From assembly GCA_004377245.1 (NCBI GenBank), contig SOIK01000187.1, forward strand, positions 1 to 29,786: a DNA stretch of 29,786 bases, given 5' to 3'. This document shows positions 5,681 to 19,050 of this stretch, piece by piece. Both the position numbers and the translations under genes were made by a program. The DNA is from Sulfurovum sp. Lineage in GTDB: Bacteria > Campylobacterota > Campylobacteria > Campylobacterales > Sulfurovaceae. Every line of letters starts with the position of its first letter. Position 1 is the stretch's first letter. The notes beneath the pieces are model-generated. The model was not told where the DNA came from. It saw nothing but the letters and a program-made list of their open reading frames with translations, and did no database searches.

Positions 5681-6094
5681 TTAATTATTTTCTTTTTGTA
5701 GCAAATCTCTATAGATATGAATGCTCTCTTCTACTTCGTTTTCTGAAGCAGGTCTTCTTGCTGCTGTGTACCCGGTGATGTCTCCATCAGTTACAATAGG
5801 AGTGATATGTGAATAAACCCAGTAATACTTACCATCTTTTCGAAGATTTTTAACAATCCCTGTCCACTCTTTCCCTGCTTGTATGGTGTCCCATACCTCT
5901 TGGAAAGCAGCTTTTGGCATATCAGGATGCCTGACAATGTTGTGATTTTTTCCTGTAAGTTCATCTTTTGTGTAGCCCGTAATTTCACAGAATTTTCTGT
6001 TGGCATACGTAATGATGCCGTTTAAATCTGTAGAGCTTACGATTAACCCCTTTTCAAAGGTATGCTCTTCGTTGATTGGATCAGGTCTATTCAT
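5681..6094 (-). CDS. Aer/CetB-type stand-alone PAS sensor protein
   Basis: A 137-residue protein that is a single PAS domain. The segment NHNIVRHPDMPKAAFQEVW (residues 50-68) followed by GKEWTGIVKNLRKDGKYYWV is nearly the signature of the FAD-binding PAS of the aerotaxis receptor Aer, including Arg55, His56 and Asp58. In Campylobacter a similar PAS-only protein, CetB, passes a redox signal to a separate membrane partner. It is the first gene of the signalling operon, so it may feed redox or energy status to the hybrid kinase or its Hpt protein. The start ATG at 6094 follows a purine-rich GGGTAAG. FAD binding is inferred from family motifs, not shown. Confidence 0.88.
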   Translation of the reverse strand: MNRPDPINEEHTFEKGLIVSSTDLNGIITYANRKFCEITGYTKDELTGKNHNIVRHPDMPKAAFQEVWDTIQAGKEWTGIVKNLRKDGKYYWVYSHITPIVTDGDITGYTAARRPASENEVEESIHIYRDLLQKENN

Positions 6095-6173
6095 AGTATT
6101 TTCTTACCCTTTTTTTGTTGTATCAAGAAGAAGTGTAGTACGTAGTAAACCTAAAGTAATAAAATTTACTATT

Positions 6174-6236
6174 AGCAACCTGGCAATCTACATGAGACCC
6201 ATGGTTTTCTGTCCTCACTTCACAATGAGTTTAGCT
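6174..6236 (-). promoter_or_regulatory. Candidate c-di-GMP-I (GEMM) riboswitch, divergent, in the operon leader
   Basis: Read on the minus strand, this stretch follows the GEMM layout. AGCTAAAC (compare GGCAAAC) is followed by a 6-bp hairpin with a GNRA loop (CTCATT, GTGA, AGTGAG; plus positions 6214-6229), then GGACAGAAAACC (compare GGGACGCAAAGCC), CATGGGTCT (compare CAYGGGYCTAA) and GATTGCCAGGTTGCT (compare GATAGCCGGGTTGCC). The two ends pair (AGC with GCT), as in the family. Several usually fixed bases differ, so ligand preference may be altered or lost. It lies 80 bases before the PAS gene start and just after a TATAAT box, in the expected place. The downstream leader has a TAGTAAA/TTTACTA hairpin (6143-6171) but no clear terminator T-run, so control of translation is as likely as control of termination. 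Confidence 0.62.
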
Positions 6237-6261
6237 TTTTAAGTGTAAATATGAGTTATAT

Positions 6262-6279: not shown

Positions 6280-6449
6280 TTAAACCCGAAATATGCAATA
6301 GAATCATAAAACTATCATTTATCATTGAGCCTAGGGCATTCACAAGAAAATCATCGATTAACCTTTGGGTTAACCTCAAATTTTTTGCAAACACCCTAAA
6401 CTCAAGCATAAACGCTATTTTCATAATTCTATTGCATAATTCAGGTTAA
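6280..6449 (-). repeat. Long-hairpin intergenic element, copy 1
   Basis: A 170-bp inverted repeat. The two ~72-base arms align without gaps for 66 bases, from the outer TTAAACCCGAA to the inner AAAAT. The core holds CATCGA (6352-6357), a hairpin TTAACC/TTTG/GGTTAA (6358-6373), CCTCAA (6374-6379) and ATTTTTTG (6380-6387). All ten transition-type differences between arms would be G-U pairs on the minus strand and A-C mismatches on the plus strand, so the minus strand is given. It lies between uvrC and the PAS operon, both on the minus strand. Copies 2 and 3 are at 14271-14445 and 18925-19026. Confidence 0.85.
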
Positions 6450-6567
6450 ATAAATTAAGTAAAAGAAAATTTAAATAAAAACCCCACTTCTAAAACTTTA
6501 TAACAATTAAACTAAAAATAGAATGAATTAAGAAGTTTTTTAGTAAAAAATATCAAATAATGTACGA

Positions 6568-8358
6568 TTATTGATTATTAATTTTAATAATATTTGAAAT
6601 TTTCTTATTTGTAACTCTCTCAATATCTTCCCTCGAAGCACTCTCGATGGCTTCAAATGTCCCAAAGTAATTAATCAACTTTTTCACAGTAGCTTTACCT
6701 ATACCCTTTTTATTCAGTAGGGAGATTTGAGTATCTTCTTTACGCTTTTTGTTTTGATGGTAGGTGATAGCATAACGATGTGCTTCATCTCTTTGGCGTT
6801 GAACCCAGTGTAAACGTTTGTCATTTGGCTTGAGTTCTATGAGTCCATTGATAGTGTAAATGAGATCTTTCGCGGCACCTTTGGCACGGTGGGCTTTGGC
6901 ATCAAGTTTCTCTTTGGCTATGGCGATAACATCGAGGTTTACATTTTCCTCTTGAAGAAGTTGTCGAGCAAGATTTAGGTTTGCCTGACCTCCATCGAGT
7001 ATCCAGAGGTCTGGTGCAGGATGTTCTTTAAAGTCTGCTATGCGACGAGAGAGCATCTCTTTCATCTGCCCATACTCATCTCGTTCGTGCAGCGTGTAGC
7101 GTCTATAAGAACTTTTATCCCATTTGGCTTCATTCCAAACGACCATGCCTCCTACTGTGGCAACACCCATAAGATGCGAGTTGTCAAAAGTCTCTATGCG
7201 ATAAGGGATGACGGTGAGGTCAAAGAGGTCTGCTATCTTTTGCTCCATCACTGTATCACTCTGTTTTGTACGTAATAACTCCTTACAGTTTTGCAGTGCT
7301 AGAGCGATGAGTTTGGCCTTAGAGCCACGTTGTGGAGTTAGTACTTCTATTTTTTTATCAAAACGAGTTGTGAGTGTTTGGGCTACCTGTTGGCTGTCTT
7401 CAAAGGCATGAGCAGTAAGAATTTGTTTACTCACATTGGGTGTGTCGATGGTATAAAACTCTAACAAAGCTTGCTTATAGGCTTCATTTTCATCAAAGAT
7501 ATGGGTGTGCCTGAAGTAAGAGTATGCAGAGGAGATGATCTTTCCCTCACGCATAAAAAGTTTGACGATGACCCCTCTCTCATCTCCACTTTGTATGGCA
7601 AAGATATCAAGGTTCATTTGGTTGGCCAGGTCAATGTTGGAGCTAATCGTGAGTGAAGAGATCGCTTGAATGGTATCTCTCATGCTACCTGCTTCCTCGT
7701 AACGTTCCTGCATTGCAAGTGATGTCATCTTCTCTTCTAAAGTTGTGATAAGCTTTTTACGTTTTACTATGGAAGTTTTTGCTTGAGTAACTATCTCCCC
7801 ATACTCCTCAGGAGTGACTTTCCCTTCACAAGGTGCTAAACATTTTTTGATTTGGTAAAAAAGACAGGCTTTTCCTTCTCTAAGACAAGACTTTTTTTGT
7901 ACAAGTGGATAGACTTCATAGAGTGCATCAAGCAGTGCCTTTCCTCCTGTAGGAAAAGGACCATAATAGGTGATATCTTTTCCTTTTACGACTTTACGTG
8001 TAATTTCAAAACGGGGATACTCCTGCGACTCGTCTATATAGATATAAGGATAGGTCTTGTCATCACGCAAAAGGATGTTATATTTGGGTTTAAGCTGTTT
8101 AATGAGAGAGTTTTCGAGTATAAGTGCATCTTCTTCGGTTCCCACAACGATATATTCTAGTTTGTATGCTTCAAGTAGCATCTTGATGATACGTGGACTC
8201 TGCGTTGGGTTGGGTGTAAACTCCGGTGTAAAACGCCAATAGCTTTTGACACGATTTTTAAGGTTTTTTGCTTTTCCTACATAAAGCAACTTTCCTGTAG
8301 CATCAAAATACTGGTACACCCCCGCAGATGAGGGGAGGTTTTGAACTATTGATTGCAT
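6568..8358 (-). CDS. uvrC: UvrABC system protein C (excinuclease subunit)
   Basis: Nucleotide excision repair endonuclease that makes both incisions around a UvrB-bound lesion. At 596 residues it has the usual length. The N-terminal GIY-YIG nuclease is clear (SAGVYQYFDATGKLLYVGKAKNLK, about 11-34). It is followed by a cysteine-containing block (CLREGKACLFYQIKKCLAPC), a UVR motif for UvrB contact near residues 200-235, the RNase H-like second nuclease (ETFDNSHLMG, WILDGGQANL), and C-terminal helix-hairpin-helix DNA-binding repeats (LLNKKGIGKATVKKLINYFG). The start ATG (8356-8358) overlaps the end of the upstream DUF721-like gene by 13 bases, so the two are probably translationally coupled. No obvious Shine-Dalgarno is seen at the start. 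Downstream, 6451-6567 is plain AT-rich sequence. Confidence 0.97.
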   Translation of the reverse strand: MQSIVQNLPSSAGVYQYFDATGKLLYVGKAKNLKNRVKSYWRFTPEFTPNPTQSPRIIKMLLEAYKLEYIVVGTEEDALILENSLIKQLKPKYNILLRDDKTYPYIYIDESQEYPRFEITRKVVKGKDITYYGPFPTGGKALLDALYEVYPLVQKKSCLREGKACLFYQIKKCLAPCEGKVTPEEYGEIVTQAKTSIVKRKKLITTLEEKMTSLAMQERYEEAGSMRDTIQAISSLTISSNIDLANQMNLDIFAIQSGDERGVIVKLFMREGKIISSAYSYFRHTHIFDENEAYKQALLEFYTIDTPNVSKQILTAHAFEDSQQVAQTLTTRFDKKIEVLTPQRGSKAKLIALALQNCKELLRTKQSDTVMEQKIADLFDLTVIPYRIETFDNSHLMGVATVGGMVVWNEAKWDKSSYRRYTLHERDEYGQMKEMLSRRIADFKEHPAPDLWILDGGQANLNLARQLLQEENVNLDVIAIAKEKLDAKAHRAKGAAKDLIYTINGLIELKPNDKRLHWVQRQRDEAHRYAITYHQNKKRKEDTQISLLNKKGIGKATVKKLINYFGTFEAIESASREDIERVTNKKISNIIKINNQ

Positions 8359-8792
8359 TTGATCTGTTCTTTGATCTGTTCAAACTTTTCTATAAGTTCT
8401 TCATCTTCACTCTCTATCACAAAGTCACTGCTTGCCAGTTCATTGTAGTAGGGAACGGTTGTGATGTCCTCTTCAACTTTTGCTACAGGATGATACTTGC
8501 TATGAAAGACGACTACCTTATCGGCTTTCATCATCGTACACTCATTATCATGTGAAGTGAGCTGTGTTAATACACTTTTTAATAAATCTCTATTATAATT
8601 AAGTTCCATTTTAAAGCCAGGGTGTGTGACTGCTACAAAAAGCGTCTCGTTTTTGATATAGACAAACGCGATAGCCTTTTGGTACTTACTTCCCAGAAGT
8701 TTGATATACTTCTGGTAGCATGCCTGCTGCTTTAGAAATCTAAATTGAGGTTGATTGGTAAGATGAGACAAAATCATATGCGCTTTTTTCAT
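8346..8792 (-). CDS. DUF721 (DciA-like) family protein, tentative
   Basis: A 148-residue soluble protein of uncertain function. The pattern KAIAFVYIKNETLFVAVTHP followed by GFKMELNYN resembles the small DUF721 proteins of Campylobacterota, a family that includes DciA, an ancestral DnaB helicase loader. I do not recognise catalytic motifs. The open frame extends upstream to 8918, but the ATG at 8790-8792 (MKKAHMILSHL) is preferred: the extra 42 residues are cysteine-rich, unlike a protein start, and run antisense to the lipoprotein gene. A TATAAT box (8799-8804, minus) ends 6 bases before this ATG, which would make the message leaderless. The 3' end overlaps uvrC by 13 bases. Function is inferred by family resemblance only. 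Confidence 0.7.
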   Translation of the reverse strand: MKKAHMILSHLTNQPQFRFLKQQACYQKYIKLLGSKYQKAIAFVYIKNETLFVAVTHPGFKMELNYNRDLLKSVLTQLTSHDNECTMMKADKVVVFHSKYHPVAKVEEDITTVPYYNELASSDFVIESEDEELIEKFEQIKEQIKCNQ

Positions 8793-8912
8793 ACATTTAT
8801 TATAACATCTGTTTGCTGTATCATTATGGCTGGTTGTGGACATAAGACAAACCCTGTTTATGTTGCAGAGAGTGTTGATAAAAACAGTACAGTAACCAAA
8901 CAAGGATTGTAA
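8778..8912 (+). CDS. Small LptM-like lipoprotein
   Basis: A 44-residue lipoprotein. A basic N-terminus (MRFFH) and hydrophobic stretch lead to the lipobox Met-Ala-Gly-Cys with lipid-attached Cys20, followed by GHKTNPVYVAES. The pattern Cys-Gly-x-Lys-x-x-Pro-x-Tyr is that of the LptM (YifL) family, tiny outer-membrane lipoproteins that help mature the LPS translocon LptD/LptE. An in-frame ATG at 8763 would add five residues (MRQNH), but the 8778 start gives the more typical signal peptide. The stop TAA (8910-8912) is directly followed by the GTG of nadB, and an AAGGA near 8902-8906 inside this gene serves nadB. Its 5' end overlaps the start of the divergent DUF721-like gene. LptM identity is inferred from one short motif. 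Confidence 0.72.
   Translation: MRFFHTFIITSVCCIIMAGCGHKTNPVYVAESVDKNSTVTKQGL
8799..8804 (-). promoter_or_regulatory. -10 box directly before the DUF721-like start
   Basis: Minus-strand TATAAT with six bases (AAATGT) between it and the ATG at 8792. A normal start site 6-7 bases after the box would coincide with the ATG, giving a leaderless mRNA. The box lies inside the divergent lipoprotein coding sequence. Confidence 0.5.
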
Positions 8913-10370
8913 GTGCAAAAATATGACGTTTTAATTATTGGTGCTGGTATCGCTGGGCTCTATGCAGCGATGAATATCCCCAAAAGTAAAAAAGTATTAG
9001 TGCTATGTAAAGATATCCCTTGGGAGTGTAACACTTTTTATGCCCAGGGAGGTATGTCTACGGCTTTGAATGAAGCAGATATCCCACTACATGTTGAAGA
9101 TACAATGGCAGCAGGTGCTTATCATAACGATAAAGAAGCTGTAGAGATACTCTCTCGTACCTCACTTGAAACCACGCCTGATATCATTAACAAAGGGATG
9201 GAGTTTGATACGGACGAAGAGGGGAACATCCTCTACACGAAAGAAGCAGCACACTCCGTAGAGCGTATCGTTCATGCAGGGGGAGATGCTACAGGACGTT
9301 ATATGCACTACTTTATGATGGTACAAAATATGCATCAACTTCAAAAAAATACACTGGTGTATGACCTGCTTATCGAAAATGGTAGATGTTATGGCGTCAA
9401 GGCAACAGTTAATTATCAGCCAACGACTATTTACGCTGATGATGTGATTATCGCATCTGGAGGTATAGGTTCTCTTTATGCGTACAATACTAATTCTCGA
9501 ACGGTGAGTGCTGATATTCACGGTATCTGTGTTGAAAAAGGCATAGAACTTTCCGATATGGAATTTATGCAGTTTCACCCAACGGTTTTTGTCGATACAC
9601 CTTATGCCAGAAAGCTATTGCTTACTGAAGCACTTAGAGGTGAGGGTGCACATATAGTGGACGATGACGGCAATCGTTTCTTGTTTGAGTATGATAAACG
9701 AGGGGAACTTGCAAGTCGTGACATCGTAGCACGTGGTATTTTTGACTATAAACGTAAAACAGGTAAAAATGCCTATTTGGACTTTTCGATGTTTGAGGAG
9801 AAATGGTTTGAACATCGTTTTCCAAATATCACACGTACATTTGGTGCATTGGGTTATCATTTTCCTAAAGACAGGGTCTCTATCTCTCCAGCCTTTCATT
9901 ATGCCAATGGAGGTATAAAATGTGATACTTATGGTTGTATAGAAGGGATGGAAGGTCTTTATGTCATCGGTGAAGCTGCCAGAACAGGTGTGCATGGAGC
10001 CAATCGTCTGGCATCCAATTCTTTGCTTGAGGGAATGGTCTTTGCAAAGCGGGCGGTTGATCATCTTTTAAGTAAAGAAAAAATAGTGCTCAAAACACCT
10101 AAATTTGAGAAAGATTACGGTAATATTCTGCACAAAGATAATGACAAAACCTATAAACACAAACTACGTCAAGTAATGTGGGATGATATAGGTATTATCC
10201 GTACCACCAAAGGGTTGCATGAAGCGAAAAATCTCATTTATGATATGAAAAATAGAGAGATTGGACGATTGTTAGAGTTGAGACTTAATACAGCTTCCGC
10301 CATCGTAGATGCAGCACTTGCCAGAAAAGAGTCTTTGGGCTCACATTATATGGAAGCTGATAAAGCATAA
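8913..10370 (+). CDS. nadB: L-aspartate oxidase
   Basis: FAD enzyme that oxidises L-aspartate to iminoaspartate, the first step of de novo NAD synthesis with NadA; in anaerobes fumarate can be the electron acceptor. The 485-residue sequence has the N-terminal dinucleotide fold GAGIAGLYAAMN (10-21), FYAQGGMSTAL, the HAGGDATGR substrate region, MEFMQFHPT, ALRGEGAHIVDDDGNRF, and GEAARTGVHGANRLASNSLLEG, all typical of NadB rather than succinate dehydrogenase SdhA; it also ends near the NadB length. The start is GTG at 8913, six bases after AAGGA and immediately after the lipoprotein stop, so the two genes form one transcript. Stacked inverted repeats follow the stop (10377-10489). Confidence 0.93.
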   Translation: MQKYDVLIIGAGIAGLYAAMNIPKSKKVLVLCKDIPWECNTFYAQGGMSTALNEADIPLHVEDTMAAGAYHNDKEAVEILSRTSLETTPDIINKGMEFDTDEEGNILYTKEAAHSVERIVHAGGDATGRYMHYFMMVQNMHQLQKNTLVYDLLIENGRCYGVKATVNYQPTTIYADDVIIASGGIGSLYAYNTNSRTVSADIHGICVEKGIELSDMEFMQFHPTVFVDTPYARKLLLTEALRGEGAHIVDDDGNRFLFEYDKRGELASRDIVARGIFDYKRKTGKNAYLDFSMFEEKWFEHRFPNITRTFGALGYHFPKDRVSISPAFHYANGGIKCDTYGCIEGMEGLYVIGEAARTGVHGANRLASNSLLEGMVFAKRAVDHLLSKEKIVLKTPKFEKDYGNILHKDNDKTYKHKLRQVMWDDIGIIRTTKGLHEAKNLIYDMKNREIGRLLELRLNTASAIVDAALARKESLGSHYMEADKA

Positions 10371-10376
10371 GAAGCG

Positions 10377-10419
10377 GCTAGTCACTTGAGCTTCCTGCTG
10401 AAGGAAACTAAGCGTTAGC
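10377..10419. repeat. Inverted repeat after nadB
   Basis: An imperfect palindrome with outer GCTA/TAGC, middle strands CTTGAG and CTAAGCG pairing imperfectly, and an inner TTCC/GGAA hairpin. It lies 6 bases after the nadB stop. A second inverted repeat follows (10422-10466: TCAAAG/CTTTGA enclosing GTGC/GCAC). It shares the words GTCACTT and TAAGC with the inverted repeat at 13541-13615, so the two may be related. Confidence 0.45.
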
Positions 10420-10468
10420 AATCAAAGAGGATAAAGGTGCTAAAATGCACGTTTATAAACTTTGACAT

Positions 10469-10489
10469 AAAAGGGGCTTTGCTCCTTTT
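10469..10489 (+). terminator. Intrinsic terminator after nadB
   Basis: A 9-bp stem (AAAAGGGGC, loop TTT, GCTCCTTTT, with one G-T pair) whose 3' arm ends in four T. It is well placed to end the lipoprotein-nadB transcript before nhaD. Confidence 0.6.
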
Positions 10490-10525
10490 GCGTATGGAAT
10501 TAATAAAAATGAAGGATACTAAAAA

Positions 10526-11860
10526 ATGCACGGATTAGATTTAACTACAACATGGGTGGGGATACTCTCTCTAGCTATTTTTGTCATCGGATACTATTTT
10601 ATCGCTACAGAAGATAAATACCATATAAACAAAGCTAAACCAGCACTTTTTTCAGGAACACTTATCTTTATGCTTATCGGTATTTACTATGCTATAAATG
10701 GTTTGGATGTCAAGCATTTACACCACGAAGTAGAGATCCTGATCATTGAAATTGCAGGAATATTCTTCTTCCTCTTTGTTGCCATGACCTATATTGAAGC
10801 GATGATCGATAGAAATGTTTTCTCTACCTTACGTTATAACCTTGTCTCAAAAGGCTATGACTATAAAAAACTCTTCTGGATCACTGGATTCTTAGCATTT
10901 TTTCTCTCCCCTATCGCAGATAACTTAACAACGGCGCTTATCCTTTCCACAGTATTGATTACTATTGACAAAGAGAACAAAGCTTTTATCGTCCCTGCGG
11001 CAGTAAACATCGTTGTTTCAGCCAATGCCGGTGGTGCATGGAGTCCATTTGGAGATATTACAACACTAATGGTATGGGTTGATGGGAAAGGGGCTTTTGT
11101 TGATTTCTTATATCTTTTCCCTGCTTCTATCTTAGGGTGGCTTATCACCGCATTCCTTCTGAGCCGTTTTATACCAAATGGTAACCCTCCATTTGCAGAA
11201 GATGAAAAAGAAGTACACATTTCAGCAGGTGGTAAGATCATTATGGGACTGTTCGCCTTAACGATCGCATCAGCTGTTATTTCACACCAAGTACTGCACT
11301 TGCCTGCAATGTGGGGAATGATGTTTGGTTTAGCTCTTTTAAAACTCTATGTGTACAAGATGAGTAAAGAAGTAAGATATGATAGTGAGGGTGTTTTATG
11401 TCCTACTGTAAATGTTTTCTCATTCATCGCTAAAATCGAAAACGACACACTTCTTTTCTTCTTTGGTATTTTGGCTGCAGTTGGCGGTCTTCATTTCTTA
11501 GGTTTCCTGGAGTATTTTACCGCACTCTATACACAGTTTGGTGCAACTACAGTGAACATCGGAGTAGGGTTTCTTTCTGCTATCGTAGATAACGTGCCAG
11601 TGATGTCGGCAGTACTTAAATCAAGTCCAGATATGGGTATAGATGCACACTCTCAATGGATGCTGGTAACACTCACAGCAGGGGTTGGTGGTTCACTTAT
11701 CTCATTTGGTTCTGCAGCAGGTGTTGGGGTTATGGGTAAACTGCACGGTATTTATACGTTTGCATCACATATGAAATTGGCATGGACTGTCCTTATAGGG
11801 TATGTTGTCTCTGTGGCTGTATGGTATCTACAGTTTCAGATACTTGGAATTGGGGCGTAA
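10526..11860 (+). CDS. nhaD: NhaD-family sodium:proton antiporter
   Basis: Inner-membrane Na+/H+ antiporter of 444 residues, nearly all hydrophobic with about eleven to thirteen predicted helices. Family motifs are visible: FLSPIADNLTTALILSTVL, NAGGAWSPFGDITTLMVW, AIVDNVPVMSAVLKS and GVGGSLISFGSAAGVGVMG, with the acidic residues inside membrane segments expected of ion transport. The role is sodium and pH homeostasis, consistent with a marine or saline habitat. The start ATG at 10526 follows GAAGGA by nine bases. It is a single-gene transcript, separated from nadB by a terminator and from guaA by a palindrome at 11891-11921. No regulator is adjacent. Identification is strong at the family level. 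Confidence 0.93.
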   Translation: MHGLDLTTTWVGILSLAIFVIGYYFIATEDKYHINKAKPALFSGTLIFMLIGIYYAINGLDVKHLHHEVEILIIEIAGIFFFLFVAMTYIEAMIDRNVFSTLRYNLVSKGYDYKKLFWITGFLAFFLSPIADNLTTALILSTVLITIDKENKAFIVPAAVNIVVSANAGGAWSPFGDITTLMVWVDGKGAFVDFLYLFPASILGWLITAFLLSRFIPNGNPPFAEDEKEVHISAGGKIIMGLFALTIASAVISHQVLHLPAMWGMMFGLALLKLYVYKMSKEVRYDSEGVLCPTVNVFSFIAKIENDTLLFFFGILAAVGGLHFLGFLEYFTALYTQFGATTVNIGVGFLSAIVDNVPVMSAVLKSSPDMGIDAHSQWMLVTLTAGVGGSLISFGSAAGVGVMGKLHGIYTFASHMKLAWTVLIGYVVSVAVWYLQFQILGIGA

Positions 11861-11890
11861 TTCTTCTTACCCTTGTTCACACATGCATCC

Positions 11891-11921
11891 CGTCATCCTC
11901 GCACTTGATACGGGGATGACG
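11891..11921 (+). terminator. Inverted repeat/terminator after nhaD
   Basis: CGTCATCC and GGATGACG (8 bp, perfect) enclose a 15-base loop in which a further CGxxxTxxxCG pairing is possible. It lies 31 bases after the nhaD stop and has no long T-run. Similar GTCATCC palindromes are widespread dispersed repeats in bacteria, so it may be a mobile palindrome reused as a terminator. Confidence 0.5.
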
Positions 11922-11985
11922 AACATTTATTTCTATAGTTAAGTTTTTACACAAAGATTTAACCATACAAATATAAGGAAATATC

Positions 11986-13524
11986 ATGAAACAAGTACCT
12001 ATCCTCGTACTGGATTTTGGTTCACAATACACACAACTCATCGCTAGAAAACTAAGAGAGAGTGGTGTTTACACGGAAGTAGTTCCATACCGTGAAAGTA
12101 TCGAAGACATTAAAGCAAGAAAGCCACAAGGGATCATCCTCTCTGGTGGACCAGCTTCTGTCTATGCTGAAGATGCGTACAAGCCAGATGAAGGTGTTTG
12201 GGATTTAGGTTTACCGATACTAGGTATCTGTTATGGGATGCAGCTCATCACTCAACATTTTGGTGGAGAAGTAGTGGCGGCTGACCATCATGAGTATGGA
12301 AAAGCAAAACTCAAGGTAGAGGATAACTCTTCTATCTTCAAAGGTATCTCAGATGATTCTATCGTATGGATGAGTCATGGTGACAGGGCAGAAAAACTTC
12401 CTGAAGGGTTTGACATCATCGGTACAAGTGAAAACTCACCTTATGCTGCTATAGCAGATGATAACCGAAAAGTATATGCCTTCCAATTTCACCCAGAAGT
12501 ACACCACTCTGTAGAGGGTACAGCAATGCTTAAAAACTTTGCTAAAAATATCTGTGGGTGTGACAGCACTTGGAATATGGGAAGCTTTGCAAAAGAGAAG
12601 ATAGAGGGGATTAGAGCACAAGTAGGTGACAAAAAAGTTCTTTGTGGTGTAAGTGGTGGAGTAGATAGCTCAGTGGTAGCTGCGATGCTGCATGAAGCAC
12701 TACCTAAAGAGCAACTCATCTGTGTATTTGTGGATCAGGGACTTCTTCGTAAAGATGAAGCTGAACAAGTACAGGCGATGTTTAAAATGTTAGATATGCC
12801 TTTGATTACGATTGATGCGAAGAAAGAGTTTATGGAAGCACTTGCAGGGGTAACCGACCCAGAGACAAAAAGAAAAGCCATCGGTGAAAAGTTCATCGAA
12901 GTCTTTGCCACAGAAGCGAAAAAACATACAGACGTGAGTTTCCTTGCACAAGGTACACTTTACACTGATGTCATCGAGTCAGTTTCTGTAAAAGGTCCTT
13001 CAAAAACCATCAAGTCTCACCACAACGTAGGTGGACTACCAGACTGGATGACTTTTGAACTTGTAGAACCATTAAGAGAGATCTTCAAAGATGAGGTAAG
13101 AAAACTGGGTCTTGAGCTAGGCTTACCAAAAGCGATGATAGGCAGACACCCATTCCCTGGACCTGGTCTTGCTATTCGTGTGATGGGTGATGTAAATGAA
13201 GAAGCGCTCAGACTACTTCGTGAGTCAGATGCCATCATGCAAGAAGAACTCAAAGCCACAGGCTACTACGACAAAGTATGGCAAGCATTTACTGTACTTC
13301 TCAATGTGCAGTCTGTTGGTGTTATGGGTGACAACCGTACCTATGACAATACCGTATGTATCCGTATGGTAGAGTCTGTAGATGGTATGACTGCTACATT
13401 TGCGCATGTGCCACATGATGTTTTAGAGGGCATGAGTCGTAGGATTATTAATGAGATCGATGGGATAAATAGAGTGGTATATGATATATCATCAAAGCCA
13501 CCAGCAACCATCGAGTGGGAATAA
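11986..13524 (+). CDS. guaA: GMP synthase (glutamine-hydrolysing)
   Basis: Converts XMP to GMP using ATP and glutamine in purine synthesis. The 512-residue protein has the class I glutamine amidotransferase domain first, with nucleophile Cys82 in GICYGMQ and the His/Glu partners in FHPEVHHS. Next is the ATP pyrophosphatase domain with the P-loop [14 protein letters not shown]. The C-terminal dimerisation domain follows, with [17 protein letters not shown] and the end KPPATIEWE, the usual GuaA terminus. Length is normal and the gene is intact. An AAGGA lies about eight bases before the ATG. It is alone on its transcript; a purine partner, purD, is 5.6 kb away on the same strand. Confidence 0.98.
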
Positions 13525-13540
13525 GCTTATCTCTTATTTC

Positions 13541-13615
13541 ATGTCATCTTTGGATGAGTTGGTTCAGTCACTTACTAAACGTAAGCTCCTTCTCAACAAC
13601 ATCCAAATCTGACAT
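13541..13615. repeat. 75-bp inverted repeat after guaA
   Basis: Arms 13541-13561 and 13594-13615 are nearly complementary (ATGTCA, TTTGGATG and TTG paired, two small mismatched patches). They enclose an inner hairpin CTTAC/TAAAC/GTAAG (13571-13585). It lies 16 bases after the guaA stop. It is probably a dispersed palindromic element that also works as a terminator. Confidence 0.6.
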
Positions 13616-13665
13616 AAACTAAGAGCAAGCTAGATTTCACAATTGATTTTTTCTTTACTGCTAAA

Positions 13666-14265
13666 ATGAAACATAAAACAACTAAAAACTTCTCCCTTCT
13701 TATTATCACTATAAGTCTCATAGCTTTTATCTACATCTCTGTCAAAGCTTTCGCCATTGTTCAAAAAACACAGATAAGTACCAGTGACGGTATCTATACA
13801 AATCGTGTGACGACTTCTGAAGAGATAAAAGCAAAAGCATTTGAATTAACGAAAGGGTGTCAGAGTGAGCTTTGTGAGATACAAAGAGTGCTTGATTATG
13901 TGACTAAGATTCCCTATAAGACAAACCATTTTCAAGCCCACTCCCCACAGCGTACGATTCAACTTAATTTTGGTGATTGTGACGATAAAAGTAATCTGCT
14001 TATCTCTATGCTGCATACTTTGGATAAGGAGGCTTATTTTGTGTTGGTACCTAAACACATTTTTGTGATTACCCCCATTAAAGATAAAAGATTAGGAGAG
14101 ACAAAAGGACTTTGGATTGATGGAAAGAAGTATTTTATCTTGGAGAGTACAGCGAAGGGATCAGCTGTGGGATTTCCTTTGCATTACAAACTTGATGAGG
14201 TCAATGTCATTGTAGATCCTTTTACTAATGAAAAACACTCTTTTAAGCAGATAGCGTGGAGATAG
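13666..14265 (+). CDS. Membrane-anchored transglutaminase-like cysteine protein
   Basis: A 199-residue protein with one N-terminal hydrophobic helix (about residues 10-30), so it is either anchored in the inner membrane facing the periplasm or secreted. The remainder shows the transglutaminase/BTLCP-like triad: Cys in NFGDCDDKSNLL, His in VPKHIFVI, and Asp in LWIDGKKYFILE. Members of this fold act as proteases, amidases or acyl transferases; the substrate cannot be told. Two further Cys (KGCQSELCEI) precede the catalytic region and may form a disulfide. No clear Shine-Dalgarno precedes the ATG. A long-hairpin element begins six bases after the stop. The gene is flanked by guaA and the converging sixA, with no functional partner evident. 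Confidence 0.75.
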   Translation: MKHKTTKNFSLLIITISLIAFIYISVKAFAIVQKTQISTSDGIYTNRVTTSEEIKAKAFELTKGCQSELCEIQRVLDYVTKIPYKTNHFQAHSPQRTIQLNFGDCDDKSNLLISMLHTLDKEAYFVLVPKHIFVITPIKDKRLGETKGLWIDGKKYFILESTAKGSAVGFPLHYKLDEVNVIVDPFTNEKHSFKQIAWR

Positions 14266-14270
14266 TTACT

Positions 14271-14445
14271 GTTTAAACCCGAAATATGCAATAGGAATCA
14301 TAAAACTAGCATTCATCATTGAATCTATAGCATTTACAAGAAAATCATCGATTAACCTTTGGGTTAACCTCAAATTTTTTGTAAACACCATAAATCCAAG
14401 CATGAACGTTATTTTCGTAATCCTATTGCATATTTCGGGTTAAAC
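14271..14445 (-). repeat. Long-hairpin intergenic element, copy 2
   Basis: Copy 2 of the family seen at 6280-6449, 175 bp, with near-identical ends (GTTTAAACCCGAAATATGCA against its complement) and an identical core: CATCGA 14346-14351, TTAACC/TTTG/GGTTAA 14352-14367, CCTCAA 14368-14373, ATTTTTTG 14374-14381. It differs from copy 1 at scattered arm positions, several of which are compensated in the opposite arm. Its right arm runs into the sixA reading frame and supplies that gene's stop codon. Confidence 0.85.
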
Positions 14446-14927
14446 ATTTTAGGATAGATGAAAAACTGCATTTTTCCTTTCCCCATTTTAAACTTTTTCC
14501 AATGATCAATGGGTAGTTTGAGGGCTACTATACCTAAGGTTGGGACGTTGTCAATGTAGTCATTGATCATCATATTGCTAAGTTCTGTTGTCTCTGGATT
14601 GTGTCCAACTACAAAAAGAGTATCATACATGTCATCTACATCTTTGATGAGTCTGTGTATAGTTTCTGGTTCTGCCATATAGAGCGCATCTATGTATTTT
14701 ATTTTTCCACTGTAACCTATCTCTTTGGCTAAACCTTTGGCTGTGAGTTTAGCTCTTTTGGCTGAACTGGAGAGTATGAGATCTGGCATAACCTTTTTCT
14801 CTTTGAGTGCATTTGCCATTATTAAGATAGCTTTTTCCCCTCTTTTATTGAGAGCCCTGTCAAAGTCACTTTTGCTTTCATCGCTCCAGTCTGATTTGGC
14901 ATGTCTGATAAGATATAAATTTTTCAT
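14409..14927 (-). CDS. sixA: SixA-type phosphohistidine phosphatase, C-terminus supplied by a repeat
   Basis: A 172-residue histidine phosphatase of the SixA branch, which removes phosphate from histidine of Hpt or PTS proteins. The signature LYLIRHAKSDW holds the RHG-type catalytic His9; VVGHNPETTEL carries the second conserved His. The frame is open upstream to 14978, but the ATG at 14925-14927 gives the family start MKNLYLIRHAKSDW. A TATAAT (14934-14939, minus) ends 6 bases before it, suggesting a leaderless message. The last residues, FNPKYAIGLRK and the TAA stop at 14409-14411, are encoded by the arm of the long-hairpin element, so the native C-terminus was replaced or extended. The catalytic core is complete. 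A partner could be the Hpt protein of this window, by inference only. Confidence 0.88.
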   Translation of the reverse strand: MKNLYLIRHAKSDWSDESKSDFDRALNKRGEKAILIMANALKEKKVMPDLILSSSAKRAKLTAKGLAKEIGYSGKIKYIDALYMAEPETIHRLIKDVDDMYDTLFVVGHNPETTELSNMMINDYIDNVPTLGIVALKLPIDHWKKFKMGKGKMQFFIYPKMFNPKYAIGLRK

Positions 14928-14933
14928 AAGTAA

Positions 14934-14939
14934 ATTATA
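14934..14939 (-). promoter_or_regulatory. -10 box directly before sixA
   Basis: Minus-strand TATAAT with six bases (TTACTT) before the ATG at 14927. The spacing equals that at the DUF721-like gene and would place transcription start at the initiation codon. Confidence 0.5.
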
Positions 14940-15011
14940 GCAAGAATAGTAGCGTTTATATACTTTAGTCACCATCACTAAACAAACTTAAAACAATTCT
15001 TGCAAAAAAAC

Positions 15012-15040
15012 TTGAAATATTTAGCAAAATATATTATAAT
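15012..15040 (+). promoter_or_regulatory. htpG promoter
   Basis: TTGAAA (15012-15017), 17-base spacer, TATAAT (15035-15040): a textbook housekeeping promoter, with transcription start expected near 15047. A Shine-Dalgarno AGGAGA (15061-15066) precedes the ATG. No CIRCE or HAIR operator of the heat-shock repressors HrcA or HspR is visible. Confidence 0.75.
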
Positions 15041-15072
15041 CCCCCAAAATATTAATATTCAGGAGAAATACG

Positions 15073-16935
15073 ATGGCAAAACATCAGTTTCAAACAGAAA
15101 TCGGGCAACTTTTAAAGCTTATGACACACTCACTCTACTCAAACAAAGAGATATTTATCAGAGAGTTGGTATCAAACTCCAGTGATGCACTCGATAAATT
15201 TAACTACCTTTCACTTACAGATGAAAAGTTTAAAAATGACAACTGGTCAGGTAAGATCTTCATTAAATTAGATGAGGCAGATGGCAGTCTTACTATTGGT
15301 GATAACGGTATAGGTATGAATGAAGCAGATCTCATGGATCATCTTGGAACTATCGCAAAGTCTGGTACCAAAGCATTTATGGAGAACCTTACAGGAGATG
15401 CAAAAAAAGACTCTAATCTCATCGGTCAATTTGGGGTAGGGTTCTACTCGGTGTTTATGGTGGCAGAGCATGTGGATGTTATCTCTAAAAAAGCGGGTGA
15501 AGAGCAAGCTTATATGTTCAGTACGGATGGATCAGGTGAGTATGAAGTAAAACCAGTCACGAAAGAGTCTCATGGTACGATCGTCTACATCAAACTCAAA
15601 GAGGAAGAGAAAGAGTTTTTGAGTAAATGGAGAACGCAAGAGGTTGTTAAAAAGTACTCTAACCACATTGCATACCCTATCATGTTGAATTACTCCGAAG
15701 AAGAGACAATAGGTGAGGGTGATGAAAAAGAGACAAAAACAGTTCAAAAATCAGAGCAGATAAATGCTGCAACAGCACTTTGGACACTTTCAAAGTCTGA
15801 GCTTAAAAAAGAGGACTATGTAGAATTCTATAAAACCATCTCTCATGGTGATGATGAACCACTTACTTACTTACATAACAAAGTAGAGGGTGCACAAGAG
15901 TTTACAACACTCTTTTACATTCCTAAAACAGCTCCGATGGATATGTATAGAGCGGACTATCAATCAGGGGTAAAACTCTATGTTAAACGTGTGTTTATCA
16001 CTGATGATGAAAAAGAACTCTTACCTCCGTATCTTAGATTTGTGAAAGGGATCATAGACAGTGAAGATCTGCCTCTAAATGTAAGCCGTGAGATACTTCA
16101 AGAAAATAGGATTTTGGCAAACATCAAACAAAACGCAGTCAAGAAGATCTTAGGAGCGATTAAAAAACTGGGAGGTGAAGATGCAGAGACATTCACTGCG
16201 CAGTATAACAAAGTGATCAAAGAGGGTATCTATATCGATCATACGAACAAAGAGACGTTACTAGAGATCGTGCGTTATAAAAGTTCAAGCGAAGAAGGAC
16301 TCATCTCTCTAGATGATTATATCTCTCGTGGAGACAGTGAGAAAAAAGAGATCTATTACATCACAGGTGAAGATGAAAATGTGCTGAGAAACTCGCCACT
16401 ACTCGAAGCGTACAAAAAAGCAAATATCGAAGTACTTATCATGGATGACAAAGAGGTAGACAGCATTGTTACTCCTATGATAGGTAGCTATAAAGAGTGG
16501 AGTCTTAAGGACATCACAACTGTCGATGCACCAGACAGTAAGACAGAAGAAGAGAAAGAAGAGATCTCAAAAGAGTTCAAATCTCTCACAGATAAGATCA
16601 AAGAGGTTTTGGGTGAAGAGGTTAAAGAGGTTAAAACTTCTACAAGACTCACTTCAAGTCCATCATGTGTACTTAAAGACAGTTCTGATCCTATGGCTGG
16701 TATGGCTCAAATGTTTGCCCAAATGGGACAAGAGATGCCAGAGATACCACTCATCCTGGAGATAAACCCTGATCATGAGATGATCAAAAAGCTTGATGGT
16801 TTAAGTGATGAGGCTCTTTTTGAAGACATTTCATGGATACTTTTAGATTCAGCAAAACTTTCTGAAGGATTGGAACCAAAAGATAAAGGTGCATTTGCCC
16901 AGAGAGTGGCAAGTTTAGCTACGAAAGCGATATAA
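15073..16935 (+). CDS. htpG: Chaperone HtpG (Hsp90 family)
   Basis: Cytosolic ATP-dependent chaperone, 620 residues, normal for the family. The N-terminal GHKL ATPase domain shows the Glu/Asn motif IRELVSNSSDALDKFNYL, the Asp motif DNGIGMN, GTIAKSGTKAF and the lid region GQFGVGFYSVFMVAE. The middle domain follows with the conserved Arg in NVSREILQENR, then the C-terminal dimerisation domain (SSPSCVLKDS). The start is set by AGGAGA six bases before the ATG. It has its own strong promoter and is followed by a pair of REP hairpins. The final MEEVD tail of eukaryotic Hsp90 is absent, as expected in bacteria. Confidence 0.98.
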   Translation: MAKHQFQTEIGQLLKLMTHSLYSNKEIFIRELVSNSSDALDKFNYLSLTDEKFKNDNWSGKIFIKLDEADGSLTIGDNGIGMNEADLMDHLGTIAKSGTKAFMENLTGDAKKDSNLIGQFGVGFYSVFMVAEHVDVISKKAGEEQAYMFSTDGSGEYEVKPVTKESHGTIVYIKLKEEEKEFLSKWRTQEVVKKYSNHIAYPIMLNYSEEETIGEGDEKETKTVQKSEQINAATALWTLSKSELKKEDYVEFYKTISHGDDEPLTYLHNKVEGAQEFTTLFYIPKTAPMDMYRADYQSGVKLYVKRVFITDDEKELLPPYLRFVKGIIDSEDLPLNVSREILQENRILANIKQNAVKKILGAIKKLGGEDAETFTAQYNKVIKEGIYIDHTNKETLLEIVRYKSSSEEGLISLDDYISRGDSEKKEIYYITGEDENVLRNSPLLEAYKKANIEVLIMDDKEVDSIVTPMIGSYKEWSLKDITTVDAPDSKTEEEKEEISKEFKSLTDKIKEVLGEEVKEVKTSTRLTSSPSCVLKDSSDPMAGMAQMFAQMGQEMPEIPLILEINPDHEMIKKLDGLSDEALFEDISWILLDSAKLSEGLEPKDKGAFAQRVASLATKAI

Positions 16936-16941
16936 TTCTTC

Positions 16942-16967
16942 GTAGATCGGGGTGTCCCCGCCCCGAC
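16942..16967 (+). repeat. GTAG-type REP sequence, plus orientation
   Basis: A GTAG tetranucleotide followed by an imperfect palindrome (TCGGGG ... CCCCGA, with alternative CGGGG/CCCCG pairing) and ending CGAC, 26 bases in all, seven bases after the htpG stop. GTAG plus hairpin is the layout of REP elements mobilised by RAYT (TnpA-REP) tyrosine transposases. It pairs with the inverted REP at 17022-17047. Confidence 0.75.
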
Positions 16968-17021
16968 ATTAACCTTAAATTTTATCTTGTTTGTTTTGAT
17001 CTATAAATATACATGGTTTTT

Positions 17022-17047
17022 GTCGTAGTCAGGAGACTACGACCTAC
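17022..17047 (-). repeat. GTAG-type REP sequence, minus orientation
   Basis: On the minus strand: GTAG, G, then a perfect 8-bp stem TCGTAGTC/GACTACGA around TCCT, then C. It has the same length and outer bases as the REP at 16942-16967, with a different stem, in inverted orientation 54 bases away: a BIME/REPIN-like pair with the GTAG ends pointing outward. An ATG at 17013 just before it opens a false extension of the downstream gene. Confidence 0.75.
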
Positions 17048-17069
17048 GGGGTTTTTAACTAGAAAAAGA

Positions 17070-17084
17070 TATAATCAATATAAT
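17070..17084 (+). promoter_or_regulatory. Tandem -10 boxes for the cation-efflux gene
   Basis: Two TATAAT boxes (17070-17075 and 17079-17084) lie just before the TTG start at 17103, with AGGA at 17093-17096. They place transcription start downstream of 17013 and therefore argue against the upstream ATG. Confidence 0.6.
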
Positions 17085-17102
17085 AAACCTATAGGATTTT
17101 TC

Positions 17103-18038
17103 TTGAAAACACACATATCACCACAAAAAAAAGCAACTCTCGTTTCAAGTTCTGTAGCCACAGTACTTGTATTGGTGAAACTAGTCCTTGGTATCGCCAG
17201 TGGTTCAGTTGCTGTACTTGCCTCAGCTATAGACTCACTGCTTGATATGGCAGTCTCTATTTTTAACTTTTTTGCTATTAAGAAATCAGAAGAAGATGCA
17301 GATGCGGAGTATCAGTATGGTAAGGGAAAAATACAAGCTATTGCTGCGGTGATAGAAGGTACGGTTATTACTATTTCCGGAATTTATATCATCTATGTGG
17401 CACTTAAAAAATTGGATGAAGGTACAGTGACCACCTTACTTACCCCTTCTATATTTGCGATGCTGTTTTCTATTGTTGTCACTTACTTTTTAGTGCAGTA
17501 TCTACTCAAAGTGGCAAAAGAAACGGATAATCTTGTCATTAAAGCAGATGCTTTGCATTATAAGACAGACCTTTGGAGTAATGCAGCCGTACTGATAGCT
17601 TTGGGACTTGTTTCTTTCACAGGACTTGACAGCATAGACGCGATTTTTGGTTTGGGTATCGGGGTTTATATCATTTACTCTGCATATGAGATCATCGTGG
17701 AAGGTATAGAGATACTTCTCGATAAATCCTTAGATGGGAATGTGGTGGCAAAAATTGGAGAGATCATCTCTAATCACCCTGAGGTTACGAGTTATCACTG
17801 GCTTAAAACACGTACAGATGGCACGACCAACTTTGTTGAATTTCATATGGTATTGCGTCCCAATATGCTTCTGCTTGAAGCACACCGTATAGCAGATGAA
17901 GTAGAAGATAAAATGATGGTATTAGACAGAAAAAGACGGTGGATCATTACCCCGCATTTCGATCCATATGATGATGAAGATGTTAATGTAGCGATGCTGA
18001 ATGGGAAATCTTTAGTAGAAGCAAACAAAGTAAGTTAA
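17103..18038 (+). CDS. Cation diffusion facilitator (FieF-like metal efflux)
   Basis: Inner-membrane divalent metal/proton antiporter of the CDF family, 311 residues. Six helices are apparent. The transport site has Asp44 and Asp48 (SAIDSLLDMAV) and His152 and Asp156 (LHYKTDLWSNAAVL), the D-D/H-D arrangement typical of Zn/Fe/Cd exporters such as FieF. The C-terminal cytosolic domain has VTSYHWLKTRTDGTTNFVEFH and a carboxy-terminal HFDPYDDEDV. I choose TTG 17103 (LKTHISPQKKATL) rather than ATG 17013: the first 30 residues of the longer frame are translated REP hairpin and promoter sequence (VVVRRLRPTGF), whereas AGGA lies six bases before the TTG. The stop overlaps the hemD start (TAATG). The exact metal is not determined. 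Confidence 0.9.
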   Translation: MKTHISPQKKATLVSSSVATVLVLVKLVLGIASGSVAVLASAIDSLLDMAVSIFNFFAIKKSEEDADAEYQYGKGKIQAIAAVIEGTVITISGIYIIYVALKKLDEGTVTTLLTPSIFAMLFSIVVTYFLVQYLLKVAKETDNLVIKADALHYKTDLWSNAAVLIALGLVSFTGLDSIDAIFGLGIGVYIIYSAYEIIVEGIEILLDKSLDGNVVAKIGEIISNHPEVTSYHWLKTRTDGTTNFVEFHMVLRPNMLLLEAHRIADEVEDKMMVLDRKRRWIITPHFDPYDDEDVNVAMLNGKSLVEANKVS

Positions 18039-18688
18039 TGCCAAGAGTCATCTATCTTTTATCGCCTACACCTAAAACGGGTACGATAGCTCTACCTATG
18101 ATCGACTTCAGTATCACTGCAAAATCTATAGATTTTTCTCATAGTGATACCTTGATATTTACTTCTAAACAAGCTGTTATTACAGCTGATAAGATAGATC
18201 TCTCTTGGAAAAATTATCCTTGCATAGCTATAGGTGCTGCGACTAAAAAACAGATAGAGGATCTAGGGGGTGAGGTTATTTACCACCCAAAATCTTTTTA
18301 TGGTGAAGCATTAAGCCATGATATAGCACAGTTTTTTAGAGACAAAAAACTGCTTTATCTCCGTCCTAAAGAAGTCTCCTTTGACTCTAAAGGTTTTTTG
18401 GAAAAAGAGGGGATAACACTTCAAGAGCAAATCATTTATGAAACATCTTGTATCCTATACTCCTCTGAAGAGAAGCCCTCAAAAAATTCGGTTATTATCT
18501 TTACTTCTCCTTCAACCATTTATTGTTTTTTAAAGAATTTTGAGTGGGATGAGAGCTATACCGCTGTGGTTATAGGTAAAGCTACTAAAGTACATTTACC
18601 TGTACATGCAGAGTATGTAGTAGCAGATGAACCATTGATAAATGCATGTATCGTAAAAGCAAAAGAGATAGCAAATTCTTCATTTTAG
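18038..18688 (+). CDS. hemD: Uroporphyrinogen-III synthase
   Basis: Closes hydroxymethylbilane to uroporphyrinogen III in tetrapyrrole synthesis. The 216-residue protein is poorly conserved, as is usual for HemD, but shows the two-lobed pattern: DTLIFTSKQAV near residue 40, the interlobe AIGAATKKQIEDLGGEVIYHP, LLYLRPKEVSFD, the EQIIYET segment, and VIIFTSPSTIYCFLKNF. Those FTS(K/P) motifs mark equivalent positions of the two lobes. The ATG overlaps the stop of the cation-efflux gene by one base, so translation is likely coupled. Downstream is the 6S RNA gene. Identification is by pattern; confidence is good but less than for the larger enzymes. Confidence 0.86.
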   Translation: MPRVIYLLSPTPKTGTIALPMIDFSITAKSIDFSHSDTLIFTSKQAVITADKIDLSWKNYPCIAIGAATKKQIEDLGGEVIYHPKSFYGEALSHDIAQFFRDKKLLYLRPKEVSFDSKGFLEKEGITLQEQIIYETSCILYSSEEKPSKNSVIIFTSPSTIYCFLKNFEWDESYTAVVIGKATKVHLPVHAEYVVADEPLINACIVKAKEIANSSF

Positions 18689-18722
18689 AGTCTATTTTAC
18701 TGACTTCTAACTCCAAATAGGC

Positions 18723-18728
18723 TATAAT
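18723..18728 (+). promoter_or_regulatory. -10 box of 6S RNA
   Basis: A perfect TATAAT places the start of transcription near 18735, where the 6S-like sequence and its closing stem begin. Confidence 0.65.
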
Positions 18729-18734
18729 GGATTT

Positions 18735-18920
18735 AACCTAAGTGGTTCGACTACTGTATATGGGGTCCAACATTAATCTTGGTGGGACATGTAGTCTTTT
18801 GGTGTGTGGAAGTTTTCGTTTGAACTGGCCTGGTCAGTGAGAAATCATCCCCTAAAGAGAGACTCTCTCCTGCATTGTTAGCTATTAGGGCCGACTTTTA
18901 AACAGAACGGCCACTCGGGG
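18735..18920 (+). ncRNA. ssrS: 6S RNA
   Basis: A roughly 185-nt stable RNA that binds the housekeeping RNA polymerase holoenzyme as a promoter mimic in stationary phase. Its ends match the closing stem of 6S: CTAAGTGGTTCG at the 5' side and GAACGGCCACTCGGGG at the 3' side, comparable with CTGAGATGTTCG and CGGCATCTCGGAG of E. coli, including the extra CGG on the 3' strand. Inside are a GACTAC/GTAGTC stem (18749-18754 with 18791-18796), GTCC/GGAC, an apical AGTT/AACT, and CCCTAA/TTAGGG (18850-18855 with 18885-18890). Length, promoter, and place upstream of purD (which I recall for 6S in this phylum) agree. A long-hairpin element starts 5 bases downstream and may help terminate it. A covariance-model search was not possible. 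Confidence 0.78.
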
Positions 18921-18924
18921 AAAT

Positions 18925-19026
18925 TAGTGATGATTCTTGCACGCATAGGCTTTCCAAAAAATCATCGACGAACCAAAGTTCGCCTCAAATTTTTTGAAAA
19001 TTCTCTACGCACAATTATCATCACTA
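18925..19026 (-). repeat. Long-hairpin intergenic element, copy 3 (short, different arms)
   Basis: A 102-bp inverted repeat with 38-base arms that align without gaps, outer ends TAGTGATGAT on both sides. The core equals that of copies 1 and 2 (CATCGA 18963-18968, CCTCAA 18983-18988, ATTTTTTG 18989-18996), but the capping hairpin is CGAAC/CAAA/GTTCG (18969-18982), a fully compensated replacement. The outer arms are unrelated to those of the other two copies. It lies between 6S RNA and the purD promoter. Confidence 0.85.
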
Positions 19027-19050
19027 CTGACATAAATAATAAATAGTGAA

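Follow-up and report, generated by a model that had tools for sequence, protein, structure and literature searches.

The window analysed here, a stretch of 29,786 nucleotides (nt) from Sulfurovum sp. (GenBank assembly GCA_004377245.1, contig SOIK01000187.1), carries three long hairpins that share one orientation and one internal-loop core (Table 1). Together with their relatives in other genomes, these hairpins probably represent a mobile structured-RNA module that is carried by miniature transposons. Two components of this reading are strongly supported: the structure inside the module has been selected on one strand, and the elements that carry it are mobile. That the selected strand acts as RNA is a further step, which is taken up after the evidence for these two.

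The minus strand is the sense strand of all three hairpins, and in each case it gives the more stable predicted fold (-84.0 versus -47.4 kcal/mol for the plus strand of copy 1, -83.9 versus -58.7 for copy 2, and -49.6 versus -28.6 for copy 3). The same preference is seen with R1, a covariance model built from 25 relatives that include copy 3 (locus L021) and neither copy 1 nor copy 2. On the minus strand, copies 1, 2 and 3 score 102.8, 98.5 and 95.6 bits, versus 32.8, 37.0 and 48.7 bits on the plus strand, and an R1 search of the window at E<=10 matched these three places and no fourth. An earlier examination of the letters alone, hereafter the sequence-only reading, had described three hairpins in one orientation in which CATCGA faces CCTCAA beneath a cap whose sequence differs in one copy, and the sequence, folds and R1 matches agree with this description. 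Its intervals were correct in location but not in their exact ends, since they took in most of the TTAAA duplications that flank copies 1 and 2.

Selection on the folded strand is most evident from the mispairings between the two arms of each hairpin. Over the loci examined there are 146 distinct matches to the loop core, of which 56 pair the core in the predicted fold; eight of these were removed for a poor fold or a coding-like character (L074, L104, L106, L109, L114, L122, L147 and L153), leaving 48 elements. In many elements, arms anchored on the loop pair without gaps to about position 68, counted from the loop. Forty of the 48 are in register and could be counted in this way; the remainder are L001, L002, L029, L033, L051, L057, L072 and L148, the first two being window copies 1 and 2, which hence lie outside the count. 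In the inner part of the arms (positions 2-41), G·T outnumbers A·C on the sense strand by 225 to 12, and the excess holds in each segment (36:4 at positions 2-13, 119:4 at 14-27 and 70:4 at 30-41). The ratio is 35:22 at positions 42-48 and 40:41 at the outer positions 49-68. With each family reduced to one of 14 representatives, the counts come to 75:2 for the inner and 20:16 for the outer part, and an inner excess of G·T is present in every one of the 14. Fisher tests of inside against outside give 1e-18 for the 40 elements and 7e-8 for the 14 representatives, values that overstate the case because the elements counted are related. The border between the layers, near position 41, coincides with the end of the pairing in copy 3, which stops at the module edge. 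Given the inner excess and the outer equality, folding of one strand has been maintained in the inner part and not in the outer. Covariation agrees with this conclusion: in the R1 alignment, whose structure derives from the same 25 sequences, 32 of 41 pairs have changed on both sides while 94.8% of cells remain paired, and the covariation score of 0.621 (versus 0.233 when shuffled) was reached in none of 500 shuffles and by no slid version of the structure (<=0.119). An alignment of mixed sense and antisense matches (A3) was left out of the analysis.

The sequence-only reading had also raised strand-biased C to T change as an alternative source of this asymmetry. Among 25 copies in genome G098, private transitions comprise nine C>T and 11 A>G versus 11 G>A and nine T>C (20:20), and inside the module they number 14 versus 14. 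This symmetry argues against a strand-specific mutation bias and likewise against strong selection on each resident copy. Strand-biased deamination was rejected, being contradicted by these counts and also by the outer arms, in which G·T and A·C are balanced. Most simply, the structure is selected in the propagating lineage while resident copies drift freely. No inference was drawn from the total of differing cells in the G098 copies (inside 44 versus 98, outside 28 versus 12), which are scored against the consensus and are unpolarised.

The outer layer has the characteristics of transposon ends. Copies 1 and 2 are flanked on both sides by TTAAA, and target duplications of 4-5 bp are typical of the IS1380 family of insertion sequences (IS). 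Both ends, of a CCC type, were recognised in 30 of the 48 elements, on which the duplication count rests: 21 have a perfect 5-bp duplication (permutation mean 1.5, maximum 7), and in 29 at least four of the five letters are equal (permutation mean 6.6, maximum 14). There are 34 neighbouring end pairs in G098, 28 of them 162-164 bp in length and one, at 6.8 kb, probably a chance pairing. The same genome holds a nested insertion, in which a 164-bp element with TTCAA doubled lies inside another, and 18 uninterrupted copies show the empty site. A candidate partner is present in G023, which has three full-length IS copies; the two compared are bounded by CCCAAATCCGTAAATAG...CTATTTACGGATTTGGG, with TTAAA and TTTAT as their duplications, and their transposase matches NF033539 (IS1380 family) with 335 bits against a cut-off of 180. 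The IS ends CCCAAATCCGTAAATAG are identical to those of elements L111 and L128, and the window copies carry the related, non-identical variants CCTGAATTATGCAATAG and CCCGAAATATGCAATAG. An R1 search of the G023 IS locus at E<=1 found no module. PF13701 was matched in five of 20 genomes tested, with full copies in G023 and degraded ones in G050; no match was obtained in the window's own genome (G000), which is 58% complete. Element copies are mostly intergenic (67 of 70 placed copies). Mobility, which the sequence-only reading had offered as a possibility to be checked through ends, target duplications, a linked transposase and empty sites, is therefore strongly supported by the duplications, by the filled and empty sites in G098 and by an IS1380 partner with such ends. 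By their CCC-like ends and 5-bp target duplication, copies 1 and 2 are plainly jumping DNA, of a kind that would be classed as IS1380-type miniature transposons. CCC-type ends were also sought on copy 3 and none was found, nor was the terminal repeat with duplication of an IS1380-derived element.

Two further arrangements of these ends were encountered. L177 (G098:363916-364263) lies within a CCC element and is a palindrome of another kind, with ends CTGACCTTGCGCAAAATCTG. On contig C7 of G000, locus L168 combines a half element (6281-6310) and a core-less 65-bp palindrome (8176-8240) with the same ends. An autonomous copy running from the half element at 6285 of this contig was considered and rejected, as no fitting second end was found and no transposase was recognised among the open reading frames.

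On the sense strand the loop core reads UUUGAG ... YGAUGA, which forms a symmetric 3x3 loop of U·U, G·A and A·G beside a U·G pair. The kink-turn (k-turn) rule describes U·U, G·A and A·G across a loop, and in this respect the core resembles k-turns and box C/D loops. Unlike those, it is symmetric, and the 3-nt bulge of a k-turn is absent from the folds of the window copies. Thus, the tandem G-A pairs envisaged in the sequence-only reading can form on the sense strand, but a standard k-turn is rejected. A second internal loop lies about 27 bp below the first, where, in 75 of 80 cells, positions 28-29 hold no Watson-Crick pair and no G·T or A·C either. Variants of the first loop include UGA/GAC in many G098 copies and UAA/GAU in L199. 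Loop invariance among the 48 elements follows by construction from their selection by this core; independent support comes from R1-found elements that retain the core amid other surrounding letters, for example those of genus g20 (AAAATTGAG..CGATGTTTTT), which have the U·G neighbour in nine of ten arm strings. These observations bear on the view that we are dealing with ordinary IS1380 miniature elements whose pairing is the usual palindrome, maintained by hairpin-templated repair. Quasi-palindrome correction can restore pairing without selection, and the invariance of the loop in the 48 elements is no obstacle to this view. Palindromic miniature elements with folding transcripts are common, as far as the available parts of two reports go (PMC10969869, PMC2229807). 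Yet repair would tend to erase internal loops, whereas R1-found elements with other letters and ends retain UGA/GAU or a close variant, and it gives no reason for an excess of G·T over A·C inside without the same outside. We consider this view very improbable.

The sequence-only reading had proposed a covariance-model search of this genome and related ones; R1 and a core pattern recovered further copies. In G000, R1 matched nine places at E<=0.01. These appear as 16 rows, since seven of them are weakly matched on the antisense strand too. The core pattern AAAWTTTGAG..GATGATTTT is present in 19 of 100 genomes (own genome counted); 13 of these have at least one match that folds as a hairpin, and those in the remaining six look like chance matches. 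At E<=1e-4, R1 matched 14 of 68 Campylobacterota genera (35 of 397 genomes), some of the genomes having supplied sequences to the model; with at most nine candidates scored per genome, copy numbers from this search are lower bounds. No Rfam family reaches its gathering threshold over the elements, matches at E<=10 falling far below it, and membership of a known RNA family was rejected. A link to viruses was also rejected, as the core pattern occurs in 13 viral stretches and the core pairs as a hairpin in none. A plasmid search with copy 2 gave no match.

Our inference is that RNA, and not single-stranded DNA, makes up the folded strand: of the minus-strand structured RNA proposed in the sequence-only reading, the one-strand structure stands as observed, and its RNA nature is our interpretation. 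Wobble-rich pairing and the border between the layers both fit RNA. Promoters of Campylobacterota need little beyond a -10 box, and in the CCC family a TAG hexamer ending in T, which ends about 7 nt upstream of the module, is found on the sense-side repeat alone in 21 of 30 elements (the reverse in none, both sides in two, neither in seven). The rows are related, and they are no more than suggestive of a promoter in the sense-side terminal repeat.

Alternatively, the folded strand could be single-stranded DNA, an intermediate of transposition, replication or uptake bound by a protein, as for IS200/IS605, attC and other hairpin substrates. DNA too tolerates G·T better than A·C and stabilises tandem G·A, what is selected is propagation rather than the resident copies, and the elements are scarce between convergent genes (see below), all of which such an intermediate would accommodate. 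However, the 5-bp duplications and the IS1380 partner indicate double-stranded DNA, the outer ends read by the transposase show no strand preference, and copy 3 has no such ends. IS200/IS605-type and REP (repetitive extragenic palindromic) elements are marked by absence of a target duplication and by a replication-strand bias; here a 5-bp duplication is present, and in G098 ten of 26 elements lie on the G-rich strand (p 0.33, no bias), for which reason lagging-strand single-stranded transposition was rejected. We regard the DNA alternative as unlikely.

Several observations, in addition to the relatedness of the elements noted above, weigh against a mobile RNA module. A terminator after the module is poorly indicated: the sense strand has 8.39 T per 15 nt and the antisense strand 6.86 (36 elements), hardly a stronger tract, the longest T runs are not clearly better on the sense strand, and this candidate was set aside as weak. 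Among 63 distinct intergenic copies (four duplicate places were removed from the 67), four lie between convergent, 33 between co-directional and 26 between divergent genes, against background fractions by length of 0.216, 0.578 and 0.205, a distribution that does not favour read-through RNA. In G098, PF13701 has no match despite 33 end pairs of 50-348 bp. This genome also contains the mini forms L181, L180 and L179 (50, 84 and 122 bp), which keep the ends, show duplications or near duplications (TAAAA at L181) and have no loop core; from these, the core is not strictly required for insertion, unless it was lost later. Core-less palindromes in G466 also prefer G·U on one strand (5-10 versus 0-3 pairs), so that this trait may be wider than the UGA/GAU core and is not by itself special to it. 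These palindromes are L267, L273, L276, L279, L282, L285, L288 and L291, with ends CCTGAATCCGTGACTTC or close. Finally, two G000 copies (L004 on C196 and L005 on C223) have a small hairpin of about 34 nt inserted in the loop on the GAG side, as probably does a third, judged by match length (C219:13418-13559); the insert apparently spread together with its element.

In the mechanism we favour, the outer 27 bp or so at each end would be transposon ends of the IS1380 kind, acting as double-stranded DNA. An IS1380 transposase acting in trans would move the copies and create the 5-bp target duplication; the ends, the duplications and a partner IS in a relative are observed, and the act of transposition is what these suggest. 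Between the ends, the sense strand of the module of about 105 nt (the whole of copy 3) is predicted to form one long hairpin with the internal UGA/GAU loop (U·U and tandem G·A), the adjacent wobble pair and the second loop about 27 bp below. Selection keeps the module in its single-stranded, folded form, which is most likely a small RNA made from the putative promoter in the sense-side terminal repeat, and the hairpin would benefit the element rather than the gene beside the insertion site. Our guess is that the RNA may bind a host RNA-binding protein or RNase through its tandem G·A loop and thereby favour the establishment of new copies. A local service to the host instead, such as a regulatory RNA or processing site for neighbouring genes, is the least probable explanation that we weighed. 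It would suit copy 1, which shares its strand with uvrC and a c-di-GMP-I riboswitch, and Correia and ERIC RNAs are described, in the portions of the sources at hand, as acting on neighbouring transcripts. But orientation to neighbours is mixed (antisense to both genes in 21 of the 63 copies, sense to both in 12), copy 3 is antisense to purD, and the private changes of the 25 G098 copies bear no sign of structural constraint.

Besides the CCC type, at least four further kinds of ends enclose the core or a close variant. The ends CCCAAATC go with a duplication of 5 bp, GACTTCTT and TTACCGCACC with TA, GGGCACCTC with 4 bp and GGAACTGTCAC with perhaps 3 bp, the last seen in two elements (L160 and L075). 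In genus g20 the core lies in elements mostly of 166-168 bp with ends TAGACTTCTT...AAGAAGTCTA; the flanks of eight elements show no duplication beyond TA, which may belong to the repeat. The g20 arms have 58 G·T and no A·C at positions 2-27 (13 elements) and leave register further out, and no transposase was recognised in four stretches searched for an IS at TAGACTTCTTGCAAAACT places. Elements with ends GGGCACCTC (G205 and G123; most full elements in G205 are 266 bp) have, by eye, a perfect 4-bp duplication in nine of 11 cases, and those with ends TTACCGCACC or near (G416, G323 and G400) have TA on the left in six of six and on the right in five of six. Both kinds are Y-shaped, with an outer stem, a hairpin A bearing the core or a close variant, and a hairpin B. 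Hairpin B at first resembled a sense-strand RNA, but in 11 of 12 cases it folds better on the antisense strand, and it is not claimed here for the sense RNA. A partner transposase was found only for the CCC family; judging by the ends and duplications, the other ends may be served by other transposases.

Matches extend beyond Campylobacterota, where contigs of metagenome-assembled genomes (MAGs) can be mis-binned. The Thiotrichales MAG G463 has 18 R1 rows at E<=0.01, with the UGA/GAU core in the loci read; the unclassified MAG G465 has 14 rows at 13 places; and the Thiotrichaceae MAG G466, the source also of L057, which has the core, has 21 rows at 19 places. All eight G466 loci read from this search are R1-matching palindromes with ends CCTGAATCC or close and no UGA/GAU core, and they were not counted as members. 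The Bacteroidota case, Hyunsoonleella G464, consists of two rows with weak scores (E 0.001 and 0.005) plus the fold. A more novel reading, in our view somewhat less likely than not, is that the folded RNA is itself the persisting unit, a selfish small-RNA gene whose transposon ends are exchangeable; the same core would then have travelled with at least five kinds of ends, as one hairpin or as two, within Campylobacterota and outside it. In G466 (L057, L273, L276, L279 and L291), several elements have near them, at most a few hundred bases away, a further palindromic repeat marked by CCACCCCCCC and TTTTTCGATG motifs.

Miniature inverted-repeat transposable elements (MITEs) derived from IS1380 would be the closest known relatives. 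The elements here resemble them in having the terminal inverted repeats and 5-bp duplication of the G023 IS1380 and in being small, non-coding and mostly intergenic; unlike these and other prokaryotic MITEs, they hold a hairpin of about 105 nt that is selected on one strand and common to elements with other ends. Searches of open-licence papers turned up neither this core nor comparable IS1380 MITEs, and we know of no UGA/GAU loop in Correia/NEMIS, ERIC or YPAL. The latter, in the portions of the reports available, are likewise palindromic mobile elements of 100-200 bp whose transcripts fold into long hairpins, with RNase III processing reported for Correia and an RNase E site for ERIC (PMC10969869, PMC2229807). 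Those portions do not mention symmetric outer arms around a strand-selected core, and they give Correia termini as TA, in contrast to the CCC-type ends and 5-bp duplication here; the Correia repeat itself was not aligned. CIR repeats of Caulobacter are described, in an excerpt, as a two-armed predicted RNA with conserved features, comparable to the Y-shaped elements, the conserved feature there being an exposed GANTC motif. The mobile/repeat sequence candidates (MRSC) of a 50-genome RNA survey are also multi-copy structured motifs thought to be selfish, with RNA or DNA form left open, and the example in the part consulted differs in having a UYCCGG repeat; the main text contains none of the words Campylobacter, Arcobacter or Nautilia (PMC11109978). 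GTAG and CGTC REPs and REPINs are palindromic repeats, and both kinds are reported in Sulfurovum (PMC3733652). They differ in size (20-40 bp) and in that the GTAG kind is tied to tyrosine transposases and the CGTC kind to none. Movement of the MITE type and palindromic MITEs with folding transcripts are thus already known, within what these partial sources cover (PMC10969869, PMC2229807). New here are the division between an outer part that behaves as double-stranded DNA and an inner part selected as a single strand, and the recurrence of one core within several kinds of ends.

Miniature transposons of bacteria tend to be regarded as passive DNA. Here, a part that evolves as double-stranded transposon ends adjoins, at a sharp border, one that evolves as a folded single strand, and nature thus provides a clear test of the idea that non-coding parasites are able to carry a functional RNA. 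Were the RNA real and common to elements that use different transposases, it would constitute a mobile RNA gene that aids its own spread and would point to a host factor exploited by several transposon systems. Cultivated Campylobacterota strains could settle the RNA question directly.

Table 1. Features of the three hairpin copies in the window
Feature	Position	Strand	Basis
Target duplication TTAAA, left of copy 1	6280..6284	.	sequence
Copy 1, IS1380-type miniature element, 161 bp	6285..6445	-	ends, duplication, fold
Copy 1 inner hairpin module	6311..6419	-	R1 102.8 bits, E 1.4e-23
Copy 1 loop core and cap; plus CATCGA...CCTCAA = sense UUGAGG...UCGAUG	6352..6379	-	sequence
Copy 1 TAGAAT, -10-like hexamer, sense-side terminal repeat (also on antisense side)	6426..6431	-	putative promoter
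Target duplication TTAAA, right of copy 1	6446..6450	.	sequence
Target duplication TTAAA, left of copy 2	14273..14277	.	sequence
Copy 2, IS1380-type miniature element, 162 bp	14278..14439	-	ends, duplication, fold
Copy 2 inner hairpin module	14305..14413	-	R1 98.5 bits, E 1.6e-22
Copy 2 loop core and cap	14346..14373	-	sequence
Copy 2 TAGGAT, -10-like hexamer, sense-side terminal repeat (antisense side TAGGAA)	14420..14425	-	putative promoter
Target duplication TTAAA, right of copy 2	14440..14444	.	sequence
Copy 3, inner hairpin module alone	18923..19028	-	R1 95.6 bits, E 9.2e-22
Copy 3 loop core and cap	18963..18988	-	sequence

Two of the hairpins lie close to known RNA motifs. Copy 1 is just 5' of a c-di-GMP-I riboswitch on the same strand (window 6171-6245, minus, 58.2 bits), which is located upstream of a PAS-like open reading frame (5681-6094). 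A c-di-GMP-I type match of 56 bits, below the cut-off of 59, also occurs near the element of L004. Copy 3 sits between a purD RNA motif (window 18791-18920, plus, 73.4 bits) and purD, antisense to both, and its module starts 3 bases beyond the motif on the opposite strand.

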